Assembly: GCF_003330765.1 (NCBI RefSeq)
Contig: NZ_CP024902.1
Coordinates: forward strand, 2,232,001-2,296,000
DNA length: 64,000 bases
Direction of reading: 5' to 3'
Source: Burkholderia pyrrocinia
Lineage (GTDB): Bacteria; Pseudomonadota; Gammaproteobacteria; Burkholderiales; Burkholderiaceae
Position 1 is the first letter of the stretch, and each line of letters starts with the position of its first letter. Positions 38,899 to 46,846 of this stretch are shown piece by piece. The notes beneath the pieces were generated by a model that saw nothing but the letters and a program-made list of their open reading frames with translations, was not told the origin of the DNA and did no database searches. A program made the position numbers and the translations under genes.

Positions 38899-39257
38899 TG
38901 GGCGTCTCCTTGCTCGTTTCGGTAATCCTCGGGAACCGGGCGCCTGTTGCCGCGCGCGGCGGCATGTGCAGTTGGCCGCATCGACGCTATCGCGAGCCCG
39001 GTCGACATGGATACGACGGGCGACGCATCGGGAAATCGACAGGCGCGGCGCACACGCCGGCCGATTTTTTATTGTCGGCCAATCCGCGCGGCCGACAAGG
39101 GGCAGATCGGGCCAACACCGGACGCGGGACCGCCCGTTCGGTCCGCAGCTTGCCGCCCGGCTTTTCCGGAATCGGAAAGTCGAAATCAGAAATCGTTGGT
39201 TGGGGCCAGCGATCGCGCTGACTACACTCGAGCGATCTTGTCATAACAAGTTGACCG
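38899..39257. promoter_or_regulatory. 359-base divergent control region with two inverted repeats
   Basis: No gene is seen. TTGTCGGCC (39072-39080) and GGCCGACAA (39090-39098) form a perfect nine-base inverted repeat around a nine-base spacer. CTTGTCATAACAAG (39237-39250) is a CTTGT-N4-ACAAG palindrome eight bases before the GntR start, the same layout as HutC-type operators. Both could serve the regulator encoded downstream. Confidence 0.6.
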
Positions 39258-40028
39258 ATGACCCCACCCAACGTCGTGCCGCTGTCGGCGGCCCCGCTCT
39301 ACGTGCAGATCAAGGACACGCTGCGCGCGCGCATTCTCGACGGCACCCATGCGCCGCACAGCCGGATGCCTTCCGAGCACGAACTCTGCGCAATGTTCGA
39401 CGTCAGCCGCATCACGGTGCGCCAGGCGCTCGGCGACCTGCAGAAGGAAGGCCTGCTGTTCAAGCTGCACGGCAAGGGCACGTTCGTGTCGAAGCCGAAG
39501 GCGTTCCAGAACGTGACGTCGCTGCAGGGCTTTGCCGAGGCGATGTCGTCGATGGGCTATGAGATCGTCAACCAGCTGCGCAGCTTCCGCACCGTCAAGG
39601 CCGATCGTCATCTCGCGACCAAGCTGAACGTGCCGGAAGGCGCGCCGCTCGTCGAGATTCACCGCGTGCGGCTGCTGAACCGCGAGCCGGTGTCGCTCGA
39701 ACAGACCTGGGTGCCCGAAGCGCTCGGCAAGCGCCTCGCGGGCGCCGATCTCGCGACCCGCGACATCTTCCTGGTCCTGGAAAACGACTGCGGCATCCCG
39801 CTCGGTCATGCCGACGTGTCGATCGACGCGATCCTCGCCGACGACGAGATCGTCGACGCGCTGCACGTCGAGGAAAGCAGCCCCGTGCTGCGCATCGAGC
39901 GCCTCACGCACGACGCGTCGGGCGCGCCGATCGACTACGAATACCTCTACTTCCGCGGCGACGCCTTCCAGTACCGGTTGCGCATCGACCGGCAGAAGGC
40001 GCGCAAACCTGCAAGGAACCCTCGATGA
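39258..40028 (+). CDS. HutC-type GntR regulator
   Basis: A 256-residue regulator. The winged helix is at about residues 12-75 (MPSEHELCAMFDVSRITVRQAL) and the UTRA effector domain follows (PLVEIHRVRLLNREPVSLEQTW near 125, VLRIERLTHDASGAPIDYEYLYFR at the end, in parts). UTRA regulators usually sense a small metabolite of the genes they control. Its stop overlaps the ATG of the AprA-like gene (ATGA), so it is the first gene of that operon. It would be expected to repress its own operon from the palindrome at 39237. Confidence 0.9.
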   Translation: MTPPNVVPLSAAPLYVQIKDTLRARILDGTHAPHSRMPSEHELCAMFDVSRITVRQALGDLQKEGLLFKLHGKGTFVSKPKAFQNVTSLQGFAEAMSSMGYEIVNQLRSFRTVKADRHLATKLNVPEGAPLVEIHRVRLLNREPVSLEQTWVPEALGKRLAGADLATRDIFLVLENDCGIPLGHADVSIDAILADDEIVDALHVEESSPVLRIERLTHDASGAPIDYEYLYFRGDAFQYRLRIDRQKARKPARNPR

Positions 40029-41764
40029 ATACCCATGTGCACGAATACGACGTCGTCGTGGTCGGCGGCGGCACGGCCGGCCCGATGGCAGCGATCAAGG
40101 CGAAGGAGCGCGACCCGTCCTTGCGCGTGCTGCTGCTCGAGAAGGCCAACGTAAAGCGCAGCGGCGCGATCTCGATGGGCATGGATGGCCTGAACAACGC
40201 GGTGATCCCCGGACATGCGACGCCCGAGCAGTACACGCGCGAGATCACGGTCGCCAACGACGGCATCGTCGACCAGGAAGCCGTCCATGCGTATGCGCAG
40301 CACAGCTTCGCGACGATCGAGCAGCTCGACCGCTGGGGCGTGAAGTTCGAGAAGGACGGCACCGGCGACTACGCCGTGAAGAAGGTTCATCACATGGGTT
40401 CGTACGTGCTGCCGATGCCGGAAGGACACGACATCAAGAAAGTGCTGTACCGGCAGCTGAAGCGCGCGCGCATCGCGATCACGAACCGGATCGTCGCGAC
40501 GCGCGTGCTGACCGACGCGCAGGGCCGCGCGAGCGGCGTGCTCGGCTTCGACTGCCGCACCGCGGATTTCCACGTGATCCGCGCGAAAGCCGTGATTCTC
40601 TGCTGCGGCGCGGCCGGCCGCCTCGGGCTGCCGGCGTCGGGCTACCTGATGGGCACGTACGAGAACCCGACCAACGCGGGCGACGGCTATGCGATGGCCT
40701 ATCACGCGGGCGCCGCACTCGCGAATCTCGAATGCTTCCAGATCAATCCGCTGATCAAGGACTACAACGGCCCCGCGTGCGCCTACGTGACGGGTCCGCT
40801 CGGCGGCTTCACCGCGAACGGCAAGGGCGAACGCTTCATCGAATGCGATTACTGGAGCGGTCAGATGATGTGGGAGTTCTACCAGGAATTGCAAAGCGGC
40901 AACGGCCCCGTGTTCCTGAAACTCGACCATCTCGCGGAAGAAACGATCCGGACCATCGAGCAGATCCTGCATACGAACGAGCGGCCGAGCCGCGGCCGCT
41001 TCCACGCGGGGCGCGGGACCGACTACCGAAACCGGATGGTCGAGATGCACATCTCCGAGATCGGCTTCTGCAGCGGCCACAGCGCATCCGGCGTGTATGT
41101 GAACGCGCGCGCGGAAACGACCGTGCCGGGGCTCTACGCGGCTGGCGACATGGCGGCCGTCCCGCACAACTACATGCTCGGCGCGTTCACGTACGGCTGG
41201 TTCGCCGGACAGAACGCGGCCGACTACGTAGCCGGCCGCGACCATGCGCCGGTGGACGACGAACAGGTCGACGCCGAGCGCGCTCGCGTGCTTGCCCCGC
41301 TTTTGCGCGAGCGCGGCCTGGCGCCGGCGCAGGTCGAGTACAAGCTGCGCCGCATGGTGAACGACTACCTGCAACCGCCGAAGGTGACGCGCAAGATGGA
41401 GATCGGGCTGCAACGCTTTGACGGCATTACTGAGGATATCGAAGAGATGAAGGCGAACCATCCGCACGAACTGATGCGCGCGGCCGAAGTGCGCGCGATC
41501 CGGGACTGCGCGGAAATGGCCGCGCGCGCGTCGCTGTTCCGCACCGAGAGCCGCTGGGGGCTGTACCACCATCGCGTCGACTTTCCGCACCGCAACGACG
41601 CCGAATGGTTCTGCCATACATGGCTGCGCAAGGACGCCGACGGCGCGATGCGCAGCGAGAAGCGGCCGGTCGAGCCGTACATCGTGCCGCTTGCCGACGA
41701 CGAGCGCGGCGCCTACGCGCATCTGCGCATCCGCGAACCGGCCGCGCTCGCGGCCGCCCTCTGA
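40025..41764 (+). CDS. AprA-like FAD-dependent oxidoreductase (fumarate reductase/APS reductase superfamily)
   Basis: A 579-residue flavoprotein. The FAD-binding dinucleotide loop is VVVGGGTAGPMAAIKAKE near residue 10, followed by SGAISMGMDGLNN; the second FAD contact is GLYAAGDMAAVPHNYMLG near residue 370. Overall form follows adenylylsulfate reductase alpha and fumarate reductase flavoproteins. The short iron-sulfur partner just downstream supports an AprAB-like complex. No APS pathway gene (sat, qmo) is in the window and the electron donor is unknown, so APS reductase activity is not claimed. Substrate: unidentified. Confidence 0.82.
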   Translation: MNTHVHEYDVVVVGGGTAGPMAAIKAKERDPSLRVLLLEKANVKRSGAISMGMDGLNNAVIPGHATPEQYTREITVANDGIVDQEAVHAYAQHSFATIEQLDRWGVKFEKDGTGDYAVKKVHHMGSYVLPMPEGHDIKKVLYRQLKRARIAITNRIVATRVLTDAQGRASGVLGFDCRTADFHVIRAKAVILCCGAAGRLGLPASGYLMGTYENPTNAGDGYAMAYHAGAALANLECFQINPLIKDYNGPACAYVTGPLGGFTANGKGERFIECDYWSGQMMWEFYQELQSGNGPVFLKLDHLAEETIRTIEQILHTNERPSRGRFHAGRGTDYRNRMVEMHISEIGFCSGHSASGVYVNARAETTVPGLYAAGDMAAVPHNYMLGAFTYGWFAGQNAADYVAGRDHAPVDDEQVDAERARVLAPLLRERGLAPAQVEYKLRRMVNDYLQPPKVTRKMEIGLQRFDGITEDIEEMKANHPHELMRAAEVRAIRDCAEMAARASLFRTESRWGLYHHRVDFPHRNDAEWFCHTWLRKDADGAMRSEKRPVEPYIVPLADDERGAYAHLRIREPAALAAAL

Positions 41765-41775
41765 GGAGCCGTACC

Positions 41776-42021
41776 GTGTCCCATACCCCGCACGACATCT
41801 TCCTGCGCAGCAGCGCGCCCGTCACGATCGACGAGGCACTGTGCATCGCCGACAAGGGCTGCACCGTCTGCGTCGACGTGTGCCCGCTCGACCTGCTCGC
41901 GATCGACGTGACCAAGGGCAAGGCCTATATGCAGTTCGACGAATGCTGGTACTGCATGCCATGCGAGCGCGATTGCCCGACCGGCGCCGTCAAGGTCGAC
42001 ATCCCTTACCTGCTGCGCTGA
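41776..42021 (+). CDS. AprB-like ferredoxin with two [4Fe-4S] sites
   Basis: An 81-residue protein with a GTG start at 41776 behind GAGGAG. It has two cluster motifs: CIADKGCTVCVDVCP and CWYCMPCERDCP. The spacing and the KAYMQFDECWYC stretch between them resemble the N-terminal ferredoxin segment of AprB. The long C-terminal arm that wraps AprA in true APS reductase is absent. It probably passes electrons to or from the AprA-like flavoprotein 11 bases upstream. Confidence 0.85.
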   Translation: MSHTPHDIFLRSSAPVTIDEALCIADKGCTVCVDVCPLDLLAIDVTKGKAYMQFDECWYCMPCERDCPTGAVKVDIPYLLR

Positions 42022-42070
42022 CACGGCGCGCCACCCGCGCGCCGCTTCCACACTACCGGACTCACGACAC

Positions 42071-43495
42071 ATGAAAAGAATGCTACGGATGTTCCGCCTG
42101 CTCGCCGCATCGATCGCGGTCGCGGCCACCGGTTTCGCGCATGCGGAGACGATCCGCATCGCGATCGGAACGCAGGATACGACGATCAATTGCGCGACCG
42201 GCGGCCTGCTGATCCGCGAACTGCATCTGCTCGACAAGTACCTGCCGCACACCGGCAAGTATCAGGACGTGAAGTACGACGTGCAGTGGAAGGATTTCAC
42301 GTCCGGCGCGCCGCTGACCAACGAGATGGTCGCCGGCAAGCTCGACTTCGGCGCGATGGCCGATTTCCCCGGCGCGCTGAACGGCGCGGCGTTCCGCAAG
42401 GCCGGCCGCCGCAGCGTGTTCATCACCGTGCTGGACGGCAGCATCGACGGCAGCGGCAACGGGATCGTCGTGCCGTCGAATTCGACGGTGCGCGGGCTGG
42501 CCGACCTGAAGGGCAAGACGATCTCGGTGCCGTTCGCATCGACCGCGCACGGCATGCTGCTGCGCGCAATCAAGGCCCAGGGCTGGAACCCCGACACCGA
42601 CGTGAACATCGTCACGCAGGCGCCCGAAGTGGCCGGCAGCGCGCTGAAGGCGAACAAGATCGACGCGCATGCGGACTTCGTGCCGTTCGCCGACCTGTTC
42701 CCGTACCGCGGCATCGCGCGCAAGATCTACGACGGCGCGCAGACCCACGCGCCGACCTTCCACGGTGCGCTCGTCGACGCGGATTACGCGCGGCGCTATC
42801 CGGAAATCGTGGTGGCCTATCTGCGCGCCGCGATCGAAGCGAACCGCTTGCTCGCGCAGAACCCGGAAAAGTACAGCCTGCTGATCGAGAAGGTCACCGG
42901 CATCGAGGCGCCGGTCGACTACCTGTATCACGGGCCGCTCGGCATCCAGACCCGCGACCTGACGTGGAAGCCCGAATACCGGCAAGCGGTCGCGACGGCC
43001 ATCGATACGCTGAAGCTGCTGAAGAAGACCGACACCGCGCCCGACCCCGCGACGTTCGTCGACGATCGCTATATCCGTGCGGCGTTCAAGGCGTCCGGGC
43101 TCGACTACGACGCGGCGCTGAAACACTACGGCAAGCAGTCGCTCGTCGCGAACGATGCGTCGACCGGCAAGCCGATCCGCGACTTCAACGACGTCGCGCA
43201 GGTCTGGCTCGCCGGCGACGAAGCCGTGCGCCACTATGCCAGCCCCGCAGCCGCCTTTGCGGCGCTCGGCAAGCTCGGCCCGTCCGCGAAGGTGCGCGCG
43301 GTGTTCGTGCACGACCATGCCAGCGGCCTGAAGCTGTTCGCCGACCAGGCGTGGTACGTAAAGGACGCGCACGGCGTGCTCACCGCGTTCCTGCTGAAGT
43401 CGGGCGCCGACGCGTACGCGCAGCAGGTATCGGGCGCGGTGGTTGACTATGCGGTCGCGAAGACCGTCACCGCGCAGGCGCTCGCCGCGCGCTGA
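42071..43495 (+). CDS. ABC substrate-binding protein with C-terminal NosL-like domain
   Basis: A 474-residue exported protein. A signal peptide ends near residue 25 (GFAHAETIRIAIG). Residues 25-345 are a nitrate/sulfonate/taurine-type binding protein (SsuA/TauA/NrtA family). Residues about 365-474 resemble the NosL fold: AQVWLAGDEAVRHYASP, VRAVFVHDHASG, QAWYVKDAHGVLTAFL and a final VVDY helix. The Cys/Met metal motif typical of copper-binding NosL is not seen. Such a fusion is unusual. It precedes the matching permease and ATPase genes. Confidence 0.8.
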   Translation: MKRMLRMFRLLAASIAVAATGFAHAETIRIAIGTQDTTINCATGGLLIRELHLLDKYLPHTGKYQDVKYDVQWKDFTSGAPLTNEMVAGKLDFGAMADFPGALNGAAFRKAGRRSVFITVLDGSIDGSGNGIVVPSNSTVRGLADLKGKTISVPFASTAHGMLLRAIKAQGWNPDTDVNIVTQAPEVAGSALKANKIDAHADFVPFADLFPYRGIARKIYDGAQTHAPTFHGALVDADYARRYPEIVVAYLRAAIEANRLLAQNPEKYSLLIEKVTGIEAPVDYLYHGPLGIQTRDLTWKPEYRQAVATAIDTLKLLKKTDTAPDPATFVDDRYIRAAFKASGLDYDAALKHYGKQSLVANDASTGKPIRDFNDVAQVWLAGDEAVRHYASPAAAFAALGKLGPSAKVRAVFVHDHASGLKLFADQAWYVKDAHGVLTAFLLKSGADAYAQQVSGAVVDYAVAKTVTAQALAAR

Positions 43496-43541
43496 GCGTC
43501 GCGCGCCCGCCTCTTTCCATTCGTCGACACCGGACTTCCGC

Positions 43542-44417
43542 ATGGCCGCCACCCTCGACCTCGTCAAACGCCGCCTCACCGACGCACCGCGCAGCGGTGA
43601 CGCCCGCTCGCCGCATTTCGCCGCGCGCCGCCGCCCGACACCGATGCGCCGCCGCGCATGGCGTTTCGCATCGCTCGCCGCCTGCATCGCGCTGTGGCAA
43701 GCGGCCGTCCACTGGCGGCTGTCGCTCGGCATCGTCACGTTCGCGAACGTGCCCGCGCCGGCCGACGTCGGCCCCGCGCTGGCATCGTTCCTGCAATCGC
43801 CGAAGCTGCCGATGCACCTGTTCGCGAGCATCACGCGCGTGCTGGCCGGCTTCGTCGCGGCGGCAGTCGCCGGCATCGGCCTCGGACTCGCGATCGGCCG
43901 CTATCGCGCGCTCGAGGACACGCTGCTGCCGCCACTCGAGATGCTGCGGCCGATTCCGGCCGTCGCGTGGATTCCGCTCGCGATCCTGATGTTTCCGTCG
44001 TCGGAGCTGAGCATGATGTTCATCACGTTCGTCGGCGCGCTGTTCCCGATCCTGCTCAATACCGTGCATGGCGCCGAAGCCGTCGACCCGCGGCTCGTCG
44101 CGACCGCGCGCAGCCTCGGCACGCGCGGCCTCGCGCTCTATGCGGAAGTGATCCTGCCCGGCGCCGCGCCGTCGATCTTCACGGGCCTGTCGATCGGGAT
44201 GGGCACCGCGTGGTTCTGCCTCGTCACGGCCGAGATGATCGCGGGTCAGTACGGTATCGGCTATTTCACGTGGGAATCCTATACGTTGCAGAACTACCCG
44301 GACATCGTGGTCGGCATGGCGCTGATCGGCCTGCTCGGGATGGGCAGCAGCCTGCTCGTCAAGCGCATCGGCGCGGCGCTCACGCCGTGGTACGCACCGC
44401 GCGGAGGCCGGCCATGA
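43542..44417 (+). CDS. ABC transporter permease, SsuC/TauC type
   Basis: A 291-residue inner-membrane permease with about six helices. The EAA loop that touches the ATPase is visible as DPRLVATARSLGTRGLALYAEVILPGAAPSIFTGL, in two parts, near residues 185-220. The N-terminal 35 residues are charged and precede the first helix. The final ATGA overlaps the ATPase gene start. It belongs with the binding protein and ATPase on either side. Confidence 0.9.
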   Translation: MAATLDLVKRRLTDAPRSGDARSPHFAARRRPTPMRRRAWRFASLAACIALWQAAVHWRLSLGIVTFANVPAPADVGPALASFLQSPKLPMHLFASITRVLAGFVAAAVAGIGLGLAIGRYRALEDTLLPPLEMLRPIPAVAWIPLAILMFPSSELSMMFITFVGALFPILLNTVHGAEAVDPRLVATARSLGTRGLALYAEVILPGAAPSIFTGLSIGMGTAWFCLVTAEMIAGQYGIGYFTWESYTLQNYPDIVVGMALIGLLGMGSSLLVKRIGAALTPWYAPRGGRP

Positions 44418-45202
44418 GCGCCGCGGACAGGACATCGACCGCACCCGGCCGCGTCGGCGTGCGCGCACTGACGATCGAACTCGGCCCGCCGCATGCGCGC
44501 TTCGCGGCGCTCGATGCGCTCGACGTCGACATCGCGCCCGGCGAATTCGTCTGCGTGCTCGGGCCGTCCGGCTGCGGAAAATCGACGCTGCTCGGCGCGC
44601 TCGCCGGCCACGTCGCCGCCACGCACGGCGAGATCGTCGTCGACGGCGAACCGGTCGACCGCCCGCATCCCGATCGCGGGCTCGTGTTCCAGCAGCACAC
44701 GCTGTTTCCGTGGAAGCGCGTGATCGACAATGTCGCGTTCGGCCTGAAGATGAAAGGCGTGCCCGCGCACGAACGCCGCCGCGAAGCGGCCGAACTGCTC
44801 GAACTCGTCGGGCTCGGCGGCTTCGGCGCGCACTACCCCGCGCAGCTTTCCGGCGGCATGCAGCAGCGCGTCGAGATCGCCCGCGTGCTGATCAACCGGC
44901 CGCGCGTGCTGCTGATGGACGAGCCGTTCGGCGCGCTCGACGCGCAGACGCGCCGGATGATGCAGACGCTGCTGCTCGACATCTGGTCGCGCATCGGCAC
45001 GACCGTGCTGTTCGTCACGCACGACATCGAGGAAGCGCTGTTTCTCGGCGACCGCATCCTGATGCTGTCGCCGCGGCCCGCGCGCATCGTCGCCGACATC
45101 CGCGTGCCGCTCGCGCGGCCCCGCACCGACGACAGCACGACCGAGCCCTCGTTCGTCGACATCAAGCGCCGCTGTCTCGCGCTGTTGCGCAACGCCGCGT
45201 GA
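44414..45202 (+). CDS. ABC transporter ATP-binding protein, SsuB/TauB type
   Basis: A 262-residue ATPase. Walker A is GPSGCGKST near residue 50, the Q loop is VFQQHTLFPWKRV, the signature is LSGGMQQRVEIARVL, Walker B is VLLMDEPFGALD, and the switch His is in VTHDIEEALFLGD. The family is that of nitrate, sulfonate and taurine importers. Its ATG overlaps the permease stop. All three importer parts are present in one series. Confidence 0.93.
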   Translation: MSAADRTSTAPGRVGVRALTIELGPPHARFAALDALDVDIAPGEFVCVLGPSGCGKSTLLGALAGHVAATHGEIVVDGEPVDRPHPDRGLVFQQHTLFPWKRVIDNVAFGLKMKGVPAHERRREAAELLELVGLGGFGAHYPAQLSGGMQQRVEIARVLINRPRVLLMDEPFGALDAQTRRMMQTLLLDIWSRIGTTVLFVTHDIEEALFLGDRILMLSPRPARIVADIRVPLARPRTDDSTTEPSFVDIKRRCLALLRNAA

Positions 45203-45241
45203 GCGTGCGTGCCTGCCCATTCACCGCACCGACTTTTTTCC

Positions 45242-46237
45242 ATGACCGCTTCTTCCTCCGCTTTCCCGCTGCCCGGCGTGCCGGCCGCCGATCATGCCGC
45301 GCCCGTCGCGCGCCTCGCCGCAGCCGATGCAACGGTGCGCCGCATCGCGCTGCTCGAACTCGCCGATCTCGAGGCGCCCGAACTCGTGCCGTCGTTCGTC
45401 GCGGCGCTGCGCGACGACCCGTCGGCCGACGTGCGCAGCGAGGCCGCGCGCGTGCTCGACGCATGGGAGCAGCCCGATGTCGTCGACGCGCTGTGCCACG
45501 CGCTGCTCGATCCGGACGACGGCGTGCGCACGACTGCCGCGCAGAGCCTGTCCGAACTGAAGAACGCGGCATCGGGCGCCGTGCTGTGCCGCTGGGCCGA
45601 CCGGCCCGAGCCGTTCGTGCGCGGTGCCGTACTGCGCGGCTTGCGCGAATTGCGCGACCCCGACGCATTCGCGCCCGCGCTGCGCGCGCTCGACGCGAGC
45701 GCCGCTGCCATACGCGCCGAGGCAGTCGTCGTGCTCGGCTGGCTCAAGGACGGCCGCGCGCTGCCGCCGCTCGCCCGCGTCGCGACCACGGACGCCGATG
45801 CCGACGTGCGGCGCGCCGCGGTCGGCGCGATCGGGTTTGCAGCGGCCGGCGATACCACCGTCGTCACCGCGTTGCTCGCGGCGCTGCGTGACGTCGAATG
45901 GCAAGTGCGCGAAGAAGCGGCTGCCACGCTCGGCAAGCTGCGCGCCGCCGTTGCGCGTGACCCGCTCGTCGCCGCGCTCGACGACGATTACTGGCAAGTG
46001 CGCGTGCGCGCCGTCCGCGCGCTCGGGCAATTGCGCGATGCGGCCGCGGCATCGGCCGTCGTCGCGCTGCTCTCGCATGCGATCAGCAATCTGCGCAAGG
46101 AAGCCGCGCTCGCGCTCGGCGAATTGCGCGACCGGGCGACGCTGCCCGCGCTGCACGACGCGCTCGACGATCGCGACCCCGAAGTACGCAAGGCCGTGCG
46201 GATCGCCATCGGACAGATCGACGAGGCGCCGCGATGA
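45242..46237 (+). CDS. HEAT-repeat protein
   Basis: A 331-residue soluble protein made of about ten HEAT/PBS-lyase-like repeats of about 31 residues; the unit DVR-x-A-A-x-x-L-G-x-L recurs (DADVRRAAVGAIG, EWQVREEAAATLGKL, YWQVRVRAVRALGQL, DPEVRKAVRIAIGQI). Such repeats bind proteins or cofactors. It lies 39 bases after the ABC genes and overlaps the DUF971 gene by ATGA, so it is part of the operon. A chaperone or assembly role for the flavin/iron-sulfur enzyme is a guess. Confidence 0.85.
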   Translation: MTASSSAFPLPGVPAADHAAPVARLAAADATVRRIALLELADLEAPELVPSFVAALRDDPSADVRSEAARVLDAWEQPDVVDALCHALLDPDDGVRTTAAQSLSELKNAASGAVLCRWADRPEPFVRGAVLRGLRELRDPDAFAPALRALDASAAAIRAEAVVVLGWLKDGRALPPLARVATTDADADVRRAAVGAIGFAAAGDTTVVTALLAALRDVEWQVREEAAATLGKLRAAVARDPLVAALDDDYWQVRVRAVRALGQLRDAAAASAVVALLSHAISNLRKEAALALGELRDRATLPALHDALDDRDPEVRKAVRIAIGQIDEAPR

Positions 46238-46512
46238 TCGCGCCGACAGAAATCGCACTCGATCACCCGGCACGCGCACTGACGCTGCACTGGCCCGACG
46301 GCGCCACGCAACGCATCGGCTATGCGCGGTTGCGCAGCGATTGCCCGTGCGCGGAATGCCGAAAGGTCCGGTTCGACGGCGGCCACATCGACGCGCGGCC
46401 GGGCCTGACGCTCGACGGCGTGGAAGCGCTCGGCTACGGTGTACGCTTCCTGTTCGGCGACGGCCATGCACGCGGTATTTATCCGTGGCCGTACCTGGCG
46501 GGCCTCGCGTAG
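46234..46512 (+). CDS. DUF971 protein (gamma-butyrobetaine hydroxylase N-terminal-like)
   Basis: A 92-residue protein with the DUF971 pattern: [29 protein letters not shown], with a CxC-x2-C cysteine group near residue 36, and a later [19 protein letters not shown]. The same domain sits at the N-terminus of gamma-butyrobetaine hydroxylase and beside iron-sulfur carrier proteins (ApbC/Mrp). The cysteines suggest zinc or iron binding. It ends the operon that begins at the HutC-type regulator. Confidence 0.85.
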
Positions 46513-46618
46513 CGGCGATAACGCGGCTTCCGCGGTCGCCCGGGCCAGATGGCAGGCGGGCGAAAACGCTGCGATACTGACGCCCACGATCGTCGCCACC
46601 TACAGTGGGAGCAGCGCC

Positions 46619-46846
46619 ATGCAAACCGCAGTCGGATTCATCGGCCTCGGCGTGATGGGCACGCCGATGGCGCTCACTCTCGCACGGGCCGGCACGCCGC
46701 TCTTCGTGTGGAGCATCGGCGCCGCGTCGCCGCTGCTCCACATCTGCCACCCGCTCTACGGCGAAACCGAGCAGGCCGGACATGGCGCGGCCGACATGGT
46801 CGCCGTGATCCGTGCGATCGAACGACGTTCCGGGAACGCCCGGTGA
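46619..46846 (+). pseudogene. internally deleted hydroxyisobutyrate-dehydrogenase-like gene
   Basis: A 75-codon remnant. The first 31 residues are the Rossmann start of the family ([20 protein letters not shown]). They run directly into the family's C-terminal end ([34 protein letters not shown]). About 200 residues, including the substrate loop and catalytic Lys, are missing. The reading frame is preserved across the join, so an internal deletion is likely. It cannot be an active dehydrogenase. Confidence 0.75.

Follow-up and report, generated by a model that had tools for sequence, protein, structure and literature searches.

Asf is an electron transport system for the oxygenation of C-S bonds, according to the accessible part of a review (PMC4267179), and AsfA and AsfB of Cupriavidus metallidurans correspond to Rmet_4334/5 in the available portion of PMC2864759. 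For AprA, the flavoprotein of the adenosine 5'-phosphosulfate (APS) reductase AprAB, the accessible text of PMC2211403 assigns roles to the catalytic Arg265, the active-site Trp234, the adenine-clamp residues Arg317 and Leu278, and Asn74 and His398 at N5 of flavin adenine dinucleotide (FAD). Here, we examined an operon in a 64,000-nucleotide stretch of Burkholderia pyrrocinia DNA (contig NZ_CP024902.1, positions 2,232,001 to 2,296,000; this whole stretch is called the window), which belongs to a genome of 8.0 Mb in three contigs. In this operon, a regulator, an ATP-binding cassette (ABC) importer, an AprA-like flavoprotein, a ferredoxin, a HEAT-repeat protein, and a DUF971 protein form one conserved unit. 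We tentatively propose that a sulfonate-like compound is taken up and its sulfur stripped off reductively as sulfite. The features of the locus were as follows.

39237..39250, strand not assigned: CTTGTCATAACAAG, a palindrome and probable operator of the GntR/UTRA regulator; it adjoins the 5' side of the regulator gene, and the pattern recurs in other loci
39258..40028, + strand: GntR-family regulator with a UTRA domain (PF00392 and PF07702)
40025..41764, + strand: AprA-like flavoprotein of 579 residues, NF006131/PRK08275 (NCBIfam, 1151.8 bits; FAD_binding_2 and Succ_DH_flav_C domains)
41776..42021, + strand: AprB-like 2[4Fe-4S] ferredoxin of 81 residues with a GTG start (Pfam Fer4; eight Cys and Trp58)
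42071..43495, + strand: SsuA/TauA-type binding protein of 474 residues with a C-terminal extension (PF13379/PF09084, NMT1 type)
43542..44417, + strand: ABC permease (PF00528)
44414..45202, + strand: ABC ATPase of the TauB/SsuB type (PF00005; best NCBIfam model TauB, 252.8 bits, under the cut-off of 357)
45242..46237, + strand: HEAT-repeat protein (PF13646), which matches the HEAT half of the fused model NF010374
46234..46512, + strand: DUF971 protein (GBBH-like N-terminal domain) of 92 residues (PF06155)

A preliminary description of this DNA had reported eight genes in one direction with ATGA overlaps, and these were confirmed on the + strand at the positions listed. The overlaps lie at three junctions, namely, regulator/flavoprotein, permease/ATPase, and HEAT/DUF971.

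Flavoprotein family and active site

The flavoprotein score against the NF006131/PRK08275 equivalog exceeded the cut-off of 587 bits, and the scores against the AprA equivalog TIGR02061 (178.9 bits; cut-off, 641.75) and the SdhA/FrdA model TIGR01812 (166.6 bits; cut-off, 567.3) were far below the required levels. Its best solved relatives were the alpha subunit of 3'-phosphoadenosine 5'-phosphosulfate (PAPS) reductase (8a8o) and then AprA (1jnr/2fja), and among the matches listed, the closest named ones came from Burkholderia. In the window's genome, nothing matched the AprA model with an E value of 1e-60 or better, and the ATP-sulfurylase family PF01747 likewise had no match. The latter result agrees with the earlier remark that sat is absent; the same remark extended to qmo, and Qmo genes were not searched for.

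In a tree of 46 rows, 30 family members were separated from 12 AprA sequences plus PAPS reductase and also from AsfA, one fumarate-reductase-like protein, and the genome's own 591-residue flavoprotein. The branching order in this tree is unsure because some branches, including the one carrying the AprA/PAPS reductase group, were very long and the root served for drawing only. Judged from sequence, the flavoprotein falls within the FrdA/AprA superfamily on its AprA side, in a clade of its own, and is not an APS reductase.

Active-site columns were compared between the 30 family rows and 12 AprA rows, with the numbering of Archaeoglobus fulgidus AprA read from a printed alignment. AprA residues Asn74 (Asn57 in the window protein), Lys267, and Asp268 were retained in 30/30 family members, and His352 of the window protein aligned to AprA His398, a column that held His in 30/30 family and 12/12 AprA rows. 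The family thus keeps the residues predicted to contact the sulfonyl group at N5 of FAD. In contrast, Arg265 and Trp234, which were Arg and Trp in 12/12 AprA rows, were Leu and Tyr in 30/30 family members. Trp144, Gly274, and Phe277 were likewise replaced by His, Cys, and Val in 30/30, and the Leu278 column held Thr in 19 rows, Ala in 10, and Gly in 1. The AprA segment TCLRNH was gapped in 30/30 family members, and its Arg was present in 12/12 AprA rows; we take this Arg to be residue 317 and the aligned His to be residue 398 of the A. fulgidus sequence. Without the catalytic Arg, the active-site Trp, or the Arg of the adenine clamp, the flavoprotein can hardly bind adenosine monophosphate (AMP) or APS in the AprA manner. 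The tree and the inspection of APS-binding residues had both been suggested in the preliminary description; they place the protein on the AprA side but in its own clade, with the APS-holding residues lost in 30/30 members, and the earlier label "AprAB-like" therefore stands as a statement of homology and not as an enzyme identity.

Conservation, partner genes, and importer

We compared 119 loci overall; the neighbor counts used the 106 loci from elsewhere that had 5 kb or more before the flavoprotein match and 6 kb or more after it. This sample was not random, since 80 loci, the best of 589, came from a scan with an Acidithiobacillus sequence in the lead, and it is therefore skewed to Pseudomonas and Burkholderiales; an unannotated Nonomuraea locus (L151) was excluded from the counts and appears in the tree only. 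A neighbor was counted if it lay on the flavoprotein strand within 10 kb, with the final count made by tblastn, and 60 regions of 20 kb (20 from this genome and 40 from other genomes), counted on both strands, served as controls. The flavoprotein was accompanied by the ferredoxin in 106/106 loci, the HEAT protein in 99, the ATPase in 83, the regulator in 81, the DUF971 protein in 79, the binding protein in 77, and the permease in 76. Among the 60 controls, the ATPase was found in 13, the regulator in 1, and all other operon genes in none. The eight-gene set is conserved far beyond chance. Genes outside the window's operon were not kept across the 106 loci (major facilitator superfamily transporter, 0; Nudix, 3), and the search for the same gene order, as proposed earlier, thus recovered the set across phyla (proteobacteria and cyanobacteria) without its flanking genes. 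The operon unit is ancient or widely exchanged.

At an E value of 1e-60, the flavoprotein was present in 45/65 genomes of the genus and in 21/398 genomes sampled across the phylum, where all matches had at least 66% identity. In a plasmid collection, 53 records matched, including Acinetobacter, Acidithiobacillus, Cupriavidus, rhizobia, Methylobacterium, Methylocystis, three cyanobacterial genera, Tsukamurella, and Nonomuraea, and eleven members from the plasmid-collection groups were 56 to 68% identical to the Acidithiobacillus member. At least 6,493 of 7,999 scored candidates passed an E value of 1e-30, distant kin included. Among the available portions of the literature searched, no paper was recognized as being on this operon, and no biochemical or genetic test of the flavoprotein family was found; the accessible parts of PMC8557817, PMC7661421, PMC9007349, and PMC5373536 contained nothing on the family.

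In addition to the operon genes, organosulfur and sulfate markers were counted near the loci at 35% or higher identity and 60% or higher coverage. The operon's own ABC genes were not counted, and because the marker set was picked from some of the loci themselves, these source loci were left out. Organosulfur markers were found in 21/109 loci and in 0/60 controls; a "sulfate ABC ATPase" marker, with which the counts were 48/109 and 7/60, was unspecific and was dropped. In Pseudanabaena and Leptolyngbya, genes for TauE/SafE and YeiH-type exporters lie directly downstream of the core, Sinorhizobium loci carry sulfate and sulfonate ABC genes, and luciferase-like monooxygenase genes occur near some loci. 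On plasmid C of S. americanum, an AsfA-type gene whose product is 59% identical to the protein of C. metallidurans CH34 is located just upstream of the operon, and the same position on S. fredii pSfreNXT3a is taken by an unannotated AsfA-type gene that aligns in three pieces. A role of the operon in organosulfur use is probable. As a separate observation, the AsfA-type region of pSfreNXT3a (L216, 12001-13549) may be broken; the other plasmid case is L156.

The ferredoxin retained its eight Cys and Trp58 in 119/119 loci, and Trp58 aligned with the Trp of the AprB motif CWEC (Trp-B48). Its identity to AprB was 36 to 46% across the core. With 81 residues and a score of 38 bits against the AprB model TIGR02060 (cut-off, 135.65), it lacks the AprB tail, which bears out the earlier view that it is shorter than true AprB. 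The ferredoxin FdxA was encoded in 20 loci, in 15 of which its gene lay about 2.25 kb downstream of the flavoprotein center, directly after the HEAT gene. A ferredoxin-NADP reductase (FNR) gene was found in 13 loci (six upstream on the same strand, six downstream, and one on the opposite strand), and the six with FNR just upstream belong to genomes of a single family (f48), of which the members tested group with alphaproteobacteria. A further Nfn/GltD-like protein of about 1,150 residues was encoded in eight loci from Acidithiobacillus, Thiobacillus, Hydrogenophilales, Burkholderiales, and unclassified Proteobacteria. This NAD(P)H:ferredoxin-type protein resembles PRK06567 but falls below the cut-off of that model (L039, 10574-14035; also L051, L053, L058, L071, L075, L123, and L127). 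After removal of the loci that supplied queries, an FdxA, FNR, or Nfn-like partner was present in 24/109 loci and 1/60 controls. This enrichment favors a reaction fed by NAD(P)H, although the direction is not proven thereby.

Against the fusion model NF010374, the flavoprotein scored 864.7 bits and the HEAT protein 75 bits, each under the cut-off for the whole fusion; these matches link the two genes. In actinobacteria, the two are fused, as in the single 893-residue protein of Tsukamurella, and named relatives of the fusion come from Nocardia, Rhodococcus, and others. One fusion, P0201 from Rhodococcus wratislaviensis, bears the database name "Putative reductase (alkanesulfonate metabolism)." In four cyanobacterial plasmids, a gene for an Mrp/NBP35 Fe-S carrier follows the HEAT gene, and the two that were domain-scanned had no DUF971 domain. 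An assembly role for DUF971 therefore fits, whereas, given the fusion, the HEAT protein is better seen as a structural partner than as a loose assembly factor. The preliminary description had taken both proteins as possible assembly factors, a view that these data favor for DUF971 and disfavor for HEAT.

The nearest solved relatives of the binding protein were TauA, Escherichia coli SsuA, 3e4r, and another SsuA, in keeping with the previously described three-part importer of the SsuABC type. The entry 3e4r was deposited as a "nitrate transport protein," and its residues 36, 68, 86, and 141 fit the description of Xanthomonas citri SsuA, whose sulfonate-coordinating residues are given in the available part of PMC3839906. 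Gln35 and Gly79, which correspond to the sulfonate-coordinating Gln36 and Gly68 of 3e4r, were invariant in 14/14 binding proteins, and the second Gly (86 in 3e4r) is Ala in the window protein. The columns of Glu106 and Asp205, the amine-binding residues of TauA according to the accessible text of PMC6906117, held Asn130 and His231 in 14/14. Because of this replacement, taurine is an unlikely ligand.

The regulator scored 140 bits against the HutC model (cut-off, 220); its earlier designation as HutC type is thus tenable at the level of the GntR/UTRA superfamily only. The pattern CTTGT(N3-5)ACAAG or TTGT(N4-6)ACAA was found by the regulator start in 21/78 other loci and in 33/3900 random 260-bp windows of those loci, and CTTGTCATAACAAG is a probable operator of the regulator. 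In three cyanobacterial plasmids, a LysR gene adjoins the core. The C-terminal domain of the LysR regulator of Pseudanabaena and Leptolyngbya was 30 to 37% identical to operon binding proteins (160 to 191 bits) and scored 27 bits or less against the CH34 sulfonate-binding protein; from this similarity, the regulator probably senses the ligand of the importer. These fusions of LysR with a binding-protein domain (L042, 6676-8676; L048, 6379-8415) resemble a ligand sensor in one protein, of the same family as the binding protein of the neighboring importer.

The promoter scan found no sigma-70 promoters, and 5 terminators were observed against 5.2 expected. A frame at 46439-46846 (+ strand) matches PF03446 with 29.8 bits over 30 residues and so carries the NAD-binding motif from the N terminus of a dehydrogenase of the 6-phosphogluconate/hydroxyisobutyrate type; it is much shorter than the complete enzyme and resembles a gene remnant.

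Proposed function and rival explanations

In the proposed reductive release of sulfite, electrons from NAD(P)H would first pass to a host ferredoxin, which would hand them to the short ferredoxin with its two [4Fe-4S] clusters; from there, they would reach FAD through the conserved Trp. N5 of the reduced FAD would attack the sulfur of the bound substrate in the style of APS reductase, with Asn57 and His352 holding the substrate, and the N5-sulfite adduct would then free sulfite. Since the residues that bind AMP are lost, it would not be AMP but the organic moiety of the imported compound that leaves. The DUF971 protein (or Mrp/NBP35) may assist Fe-S insertion, and the HEAT protein may be a stable subunit of the flavoprotein. 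A more specific reading, possible but doubtful, is that the family is a second branch of the APS reductase family that works without AMP, an O2-independent reductive desulfonase of aerobic bacteria and cyanobacteria for an imported sulfonate, sulfamate, or thiosulfonate, with HEAT as a fused or separate neighboring subunit and DUF971/Mrp as its own maturation factor. If true, flavin-based sulfur release would proceed independently of oxygen in cyanobacteria and in common soil, plant-associated, and clinical bacteria, in which sulfonate use is usually explained by oxygenases. A dissimilatory enzyme family would have been redirected to nutrient scavenging, and a large protein family labeled fumarate reductase would gain a testable function.

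Several points weigh against reductive desulfonation. No other organosulfur marker was nearby in 88/109 loci, and no expression or growth data for the operon were found. The Gln/Gly oxyanion site of the importer is common to nitrate- and phosphate-binding proteins, the rows for fumarate reductase and succinate dehydrogenase also have His398, and the loss of Arg265 takes away one sulfonyl/phosphate contact. Ordinary alkanesulfonates are chemically doubtful substrates because a plain C-S bond can be cleaved reductively only when the leaving group is a good one. The structure models were of low confidence (mean predicted local distance difference test score, 57.5 for the flavoprotein and 63.9 for the fusion). 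The flavoprotein is also rich in Cys and Met (4.84%, 87th percentile among 254 proteins), which is not the composition of a sulfur-starvation protein. The binding protein (0.89% Cys and Met) and the HEAT protein (0.61%, without Met past the start) were among the sulfur-poorest of the 254 sampled proteins. With this mixed result, sulfur-poor composition was rejected as proof of sulfur starvation.

By analogy with AsfAB, the flavoprotein and ferredoxin might feed a separate monooxygenase that cleaves the imported sulfonate with O2, a role that we regard as rather unlikely. Most host genera of the operon are aerobes, and luciferase-like monooxygenase or TauD genes occur near some loci. The combination of FAD_binding_2, 2[4Fe-4S], and Ssu-type ABC proteins is shared with clusters in C. 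metallidurans and Azospirillum, at least eight replicons of the plasmid collection carry both AsfA-type and window-type flavoproteins (side by side in two), and electron transport for C-S oxygenation is the function assigned to Asf in the accessible part of the review (PMC4267179). However, the conserved core contains no oxygenase, and the window flavoprotein is on the AprA side with sulfonyl-contacting residues, whereas AsfA groups with FrdA/NadB. It is also unlikely that the substrate is another anion or a non-sulfur compound (e.g., nitro compound, phosphonate, or other oxyanion) taken up by a transporter that merely resembles Ssu/Tau/Nrt. Transporters like Ssu/Tau take varied ligands at a generic oxyanion site, the invariant Asn and His in place of the TauA amine-binding residues point to a ligand other than taurine, and the flavoprotein is not sulfur poor; nevertheless, the enriched neighbors are sulfur genes, the nearest solved binding proteins are sulfonate binders, and the AprA-type residues by the flavin are retained.

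Oxidation of sulfite or sulfinate, with electrons passing to the ferredoxin, would reverse the proposed direction. AprAB works both ways, as described in the accessible text of PMC2211403, and the FdxA/FNR neighbors could serve either direction, but the absence of the AMP site closes the sulfite-oxidizing route of AprAB, and ATP-driven import makes a low-yield oxidation implausible; we consider this reversal improbable. Least probable is an assignment to the ordinary flavoproteins of fumarate reductase/succinate dehydrogenase or to the true APS/PAPS reductases. NCBI naming of the family speaks for the former type of enzyme, but both model scores were a fraction of their cut-offs, and the eight genes include no SdhB-type or membrane subunit. 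We rejected fumarate reductase on these scores and absent partner subunits, and APS or PAPS reductase on the scores and lost residues.

Comparison with described systems

With AprAB, the window set shares homologous alpha and beta subunits, in which Asn74, His398, the beta-subunit Trp, and the eight cluster Cys are retained. It differs in the loss of Arg265, Trp234, and the Arg317 clamp, in the 81-residue beta subunit without the AprB tail, and in being paired with an importer in a genome without PF01747 ATP sulfurylase. The best solved relative, the alpha subunit of Methanothermococcus PAPS reductase 8a8o (phmmer, 201.7 bits; profile, 283 bits), retains Trp and Arg at the positions lost in the family and groups with AprA in the tree. 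The actinobacterial fusion PRK13800/NF010374 belongs to the same family, and in Tsukamurella, a ferredoxin and ABC genes lie beside it, but flavoprotein and HEAT form one chain of 887 to 911 residues among the 120 matches listed. No functional study of this fusion was found in the literature searched. SsuABC and TauABC are of the same transporter type, with the sulfonate-coordinating Gln/Gly; the window binding protein differs by its 474-residue length with a C-terminal extension and by Asn/His for Glu106/Asp205 of TauA.

To place Asf, 400 kb of the C. metallidurans CH34 megaplasmid was read, in which the only flavoprotein-ferredoxin pair beside an Ssu-type ABC system was at 928 kb, and its spacing to the squalene-hopene cyclase gene fits the locus-tag numbers. 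This pair is likely AsfAB, by position and gene pairing and not by locus tag; the assignment is not proven because there is a second cyclase copy and the minus-strand order would number AsfB before AsfA. A weak match at 895 kb was set aside, as its open reading frames, by eye, resemble another fumarate-reductase-like cluster with dicarboxylate transporters. The AsfABC systems of Pseudomonas putida S-313 and C. metallidurans share with the window a FAD_binding_2 flavoprotein, a 2[4Fe-4S] ferredoxin, an SsuA-type binding protein, and an ABC transporter. In contrast, AsfA is 23% identical to the window flavoprotein and lies on the FrdA/NadB side, AsfB has Gln at the position of the relay Trp, AsfR is of the LysR type whereas the window regulator is GntR/UTRA, and HEAT and DUF971 genes were not seen in the two Asf clusters read. 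The window's genome contained no close AsfA, with one match (E value, 4.7e-6) to another flavoprotein. Of the same 398 genomes, 10 carried AsfA-type proteins and 21 carried the window family, and no genome had both, which says little since about 0.5 would be expected by chance. On the grounds of the low flavoprotein identity and the lack of a close AsfA in the window's genome, the operon was rejected as asfRABC itself and kept as its analogue. The earlier term "undescribed" is weakened by the generic NCBIfam models (NF006131 and NF010374), by the alkanesulfonate name given to one actinobacterial member, and by the architecture shared with Asf, whose flavoprotein is of another subfamily. Altogether, Asf comes closest in build among the described systems but is not the same family.

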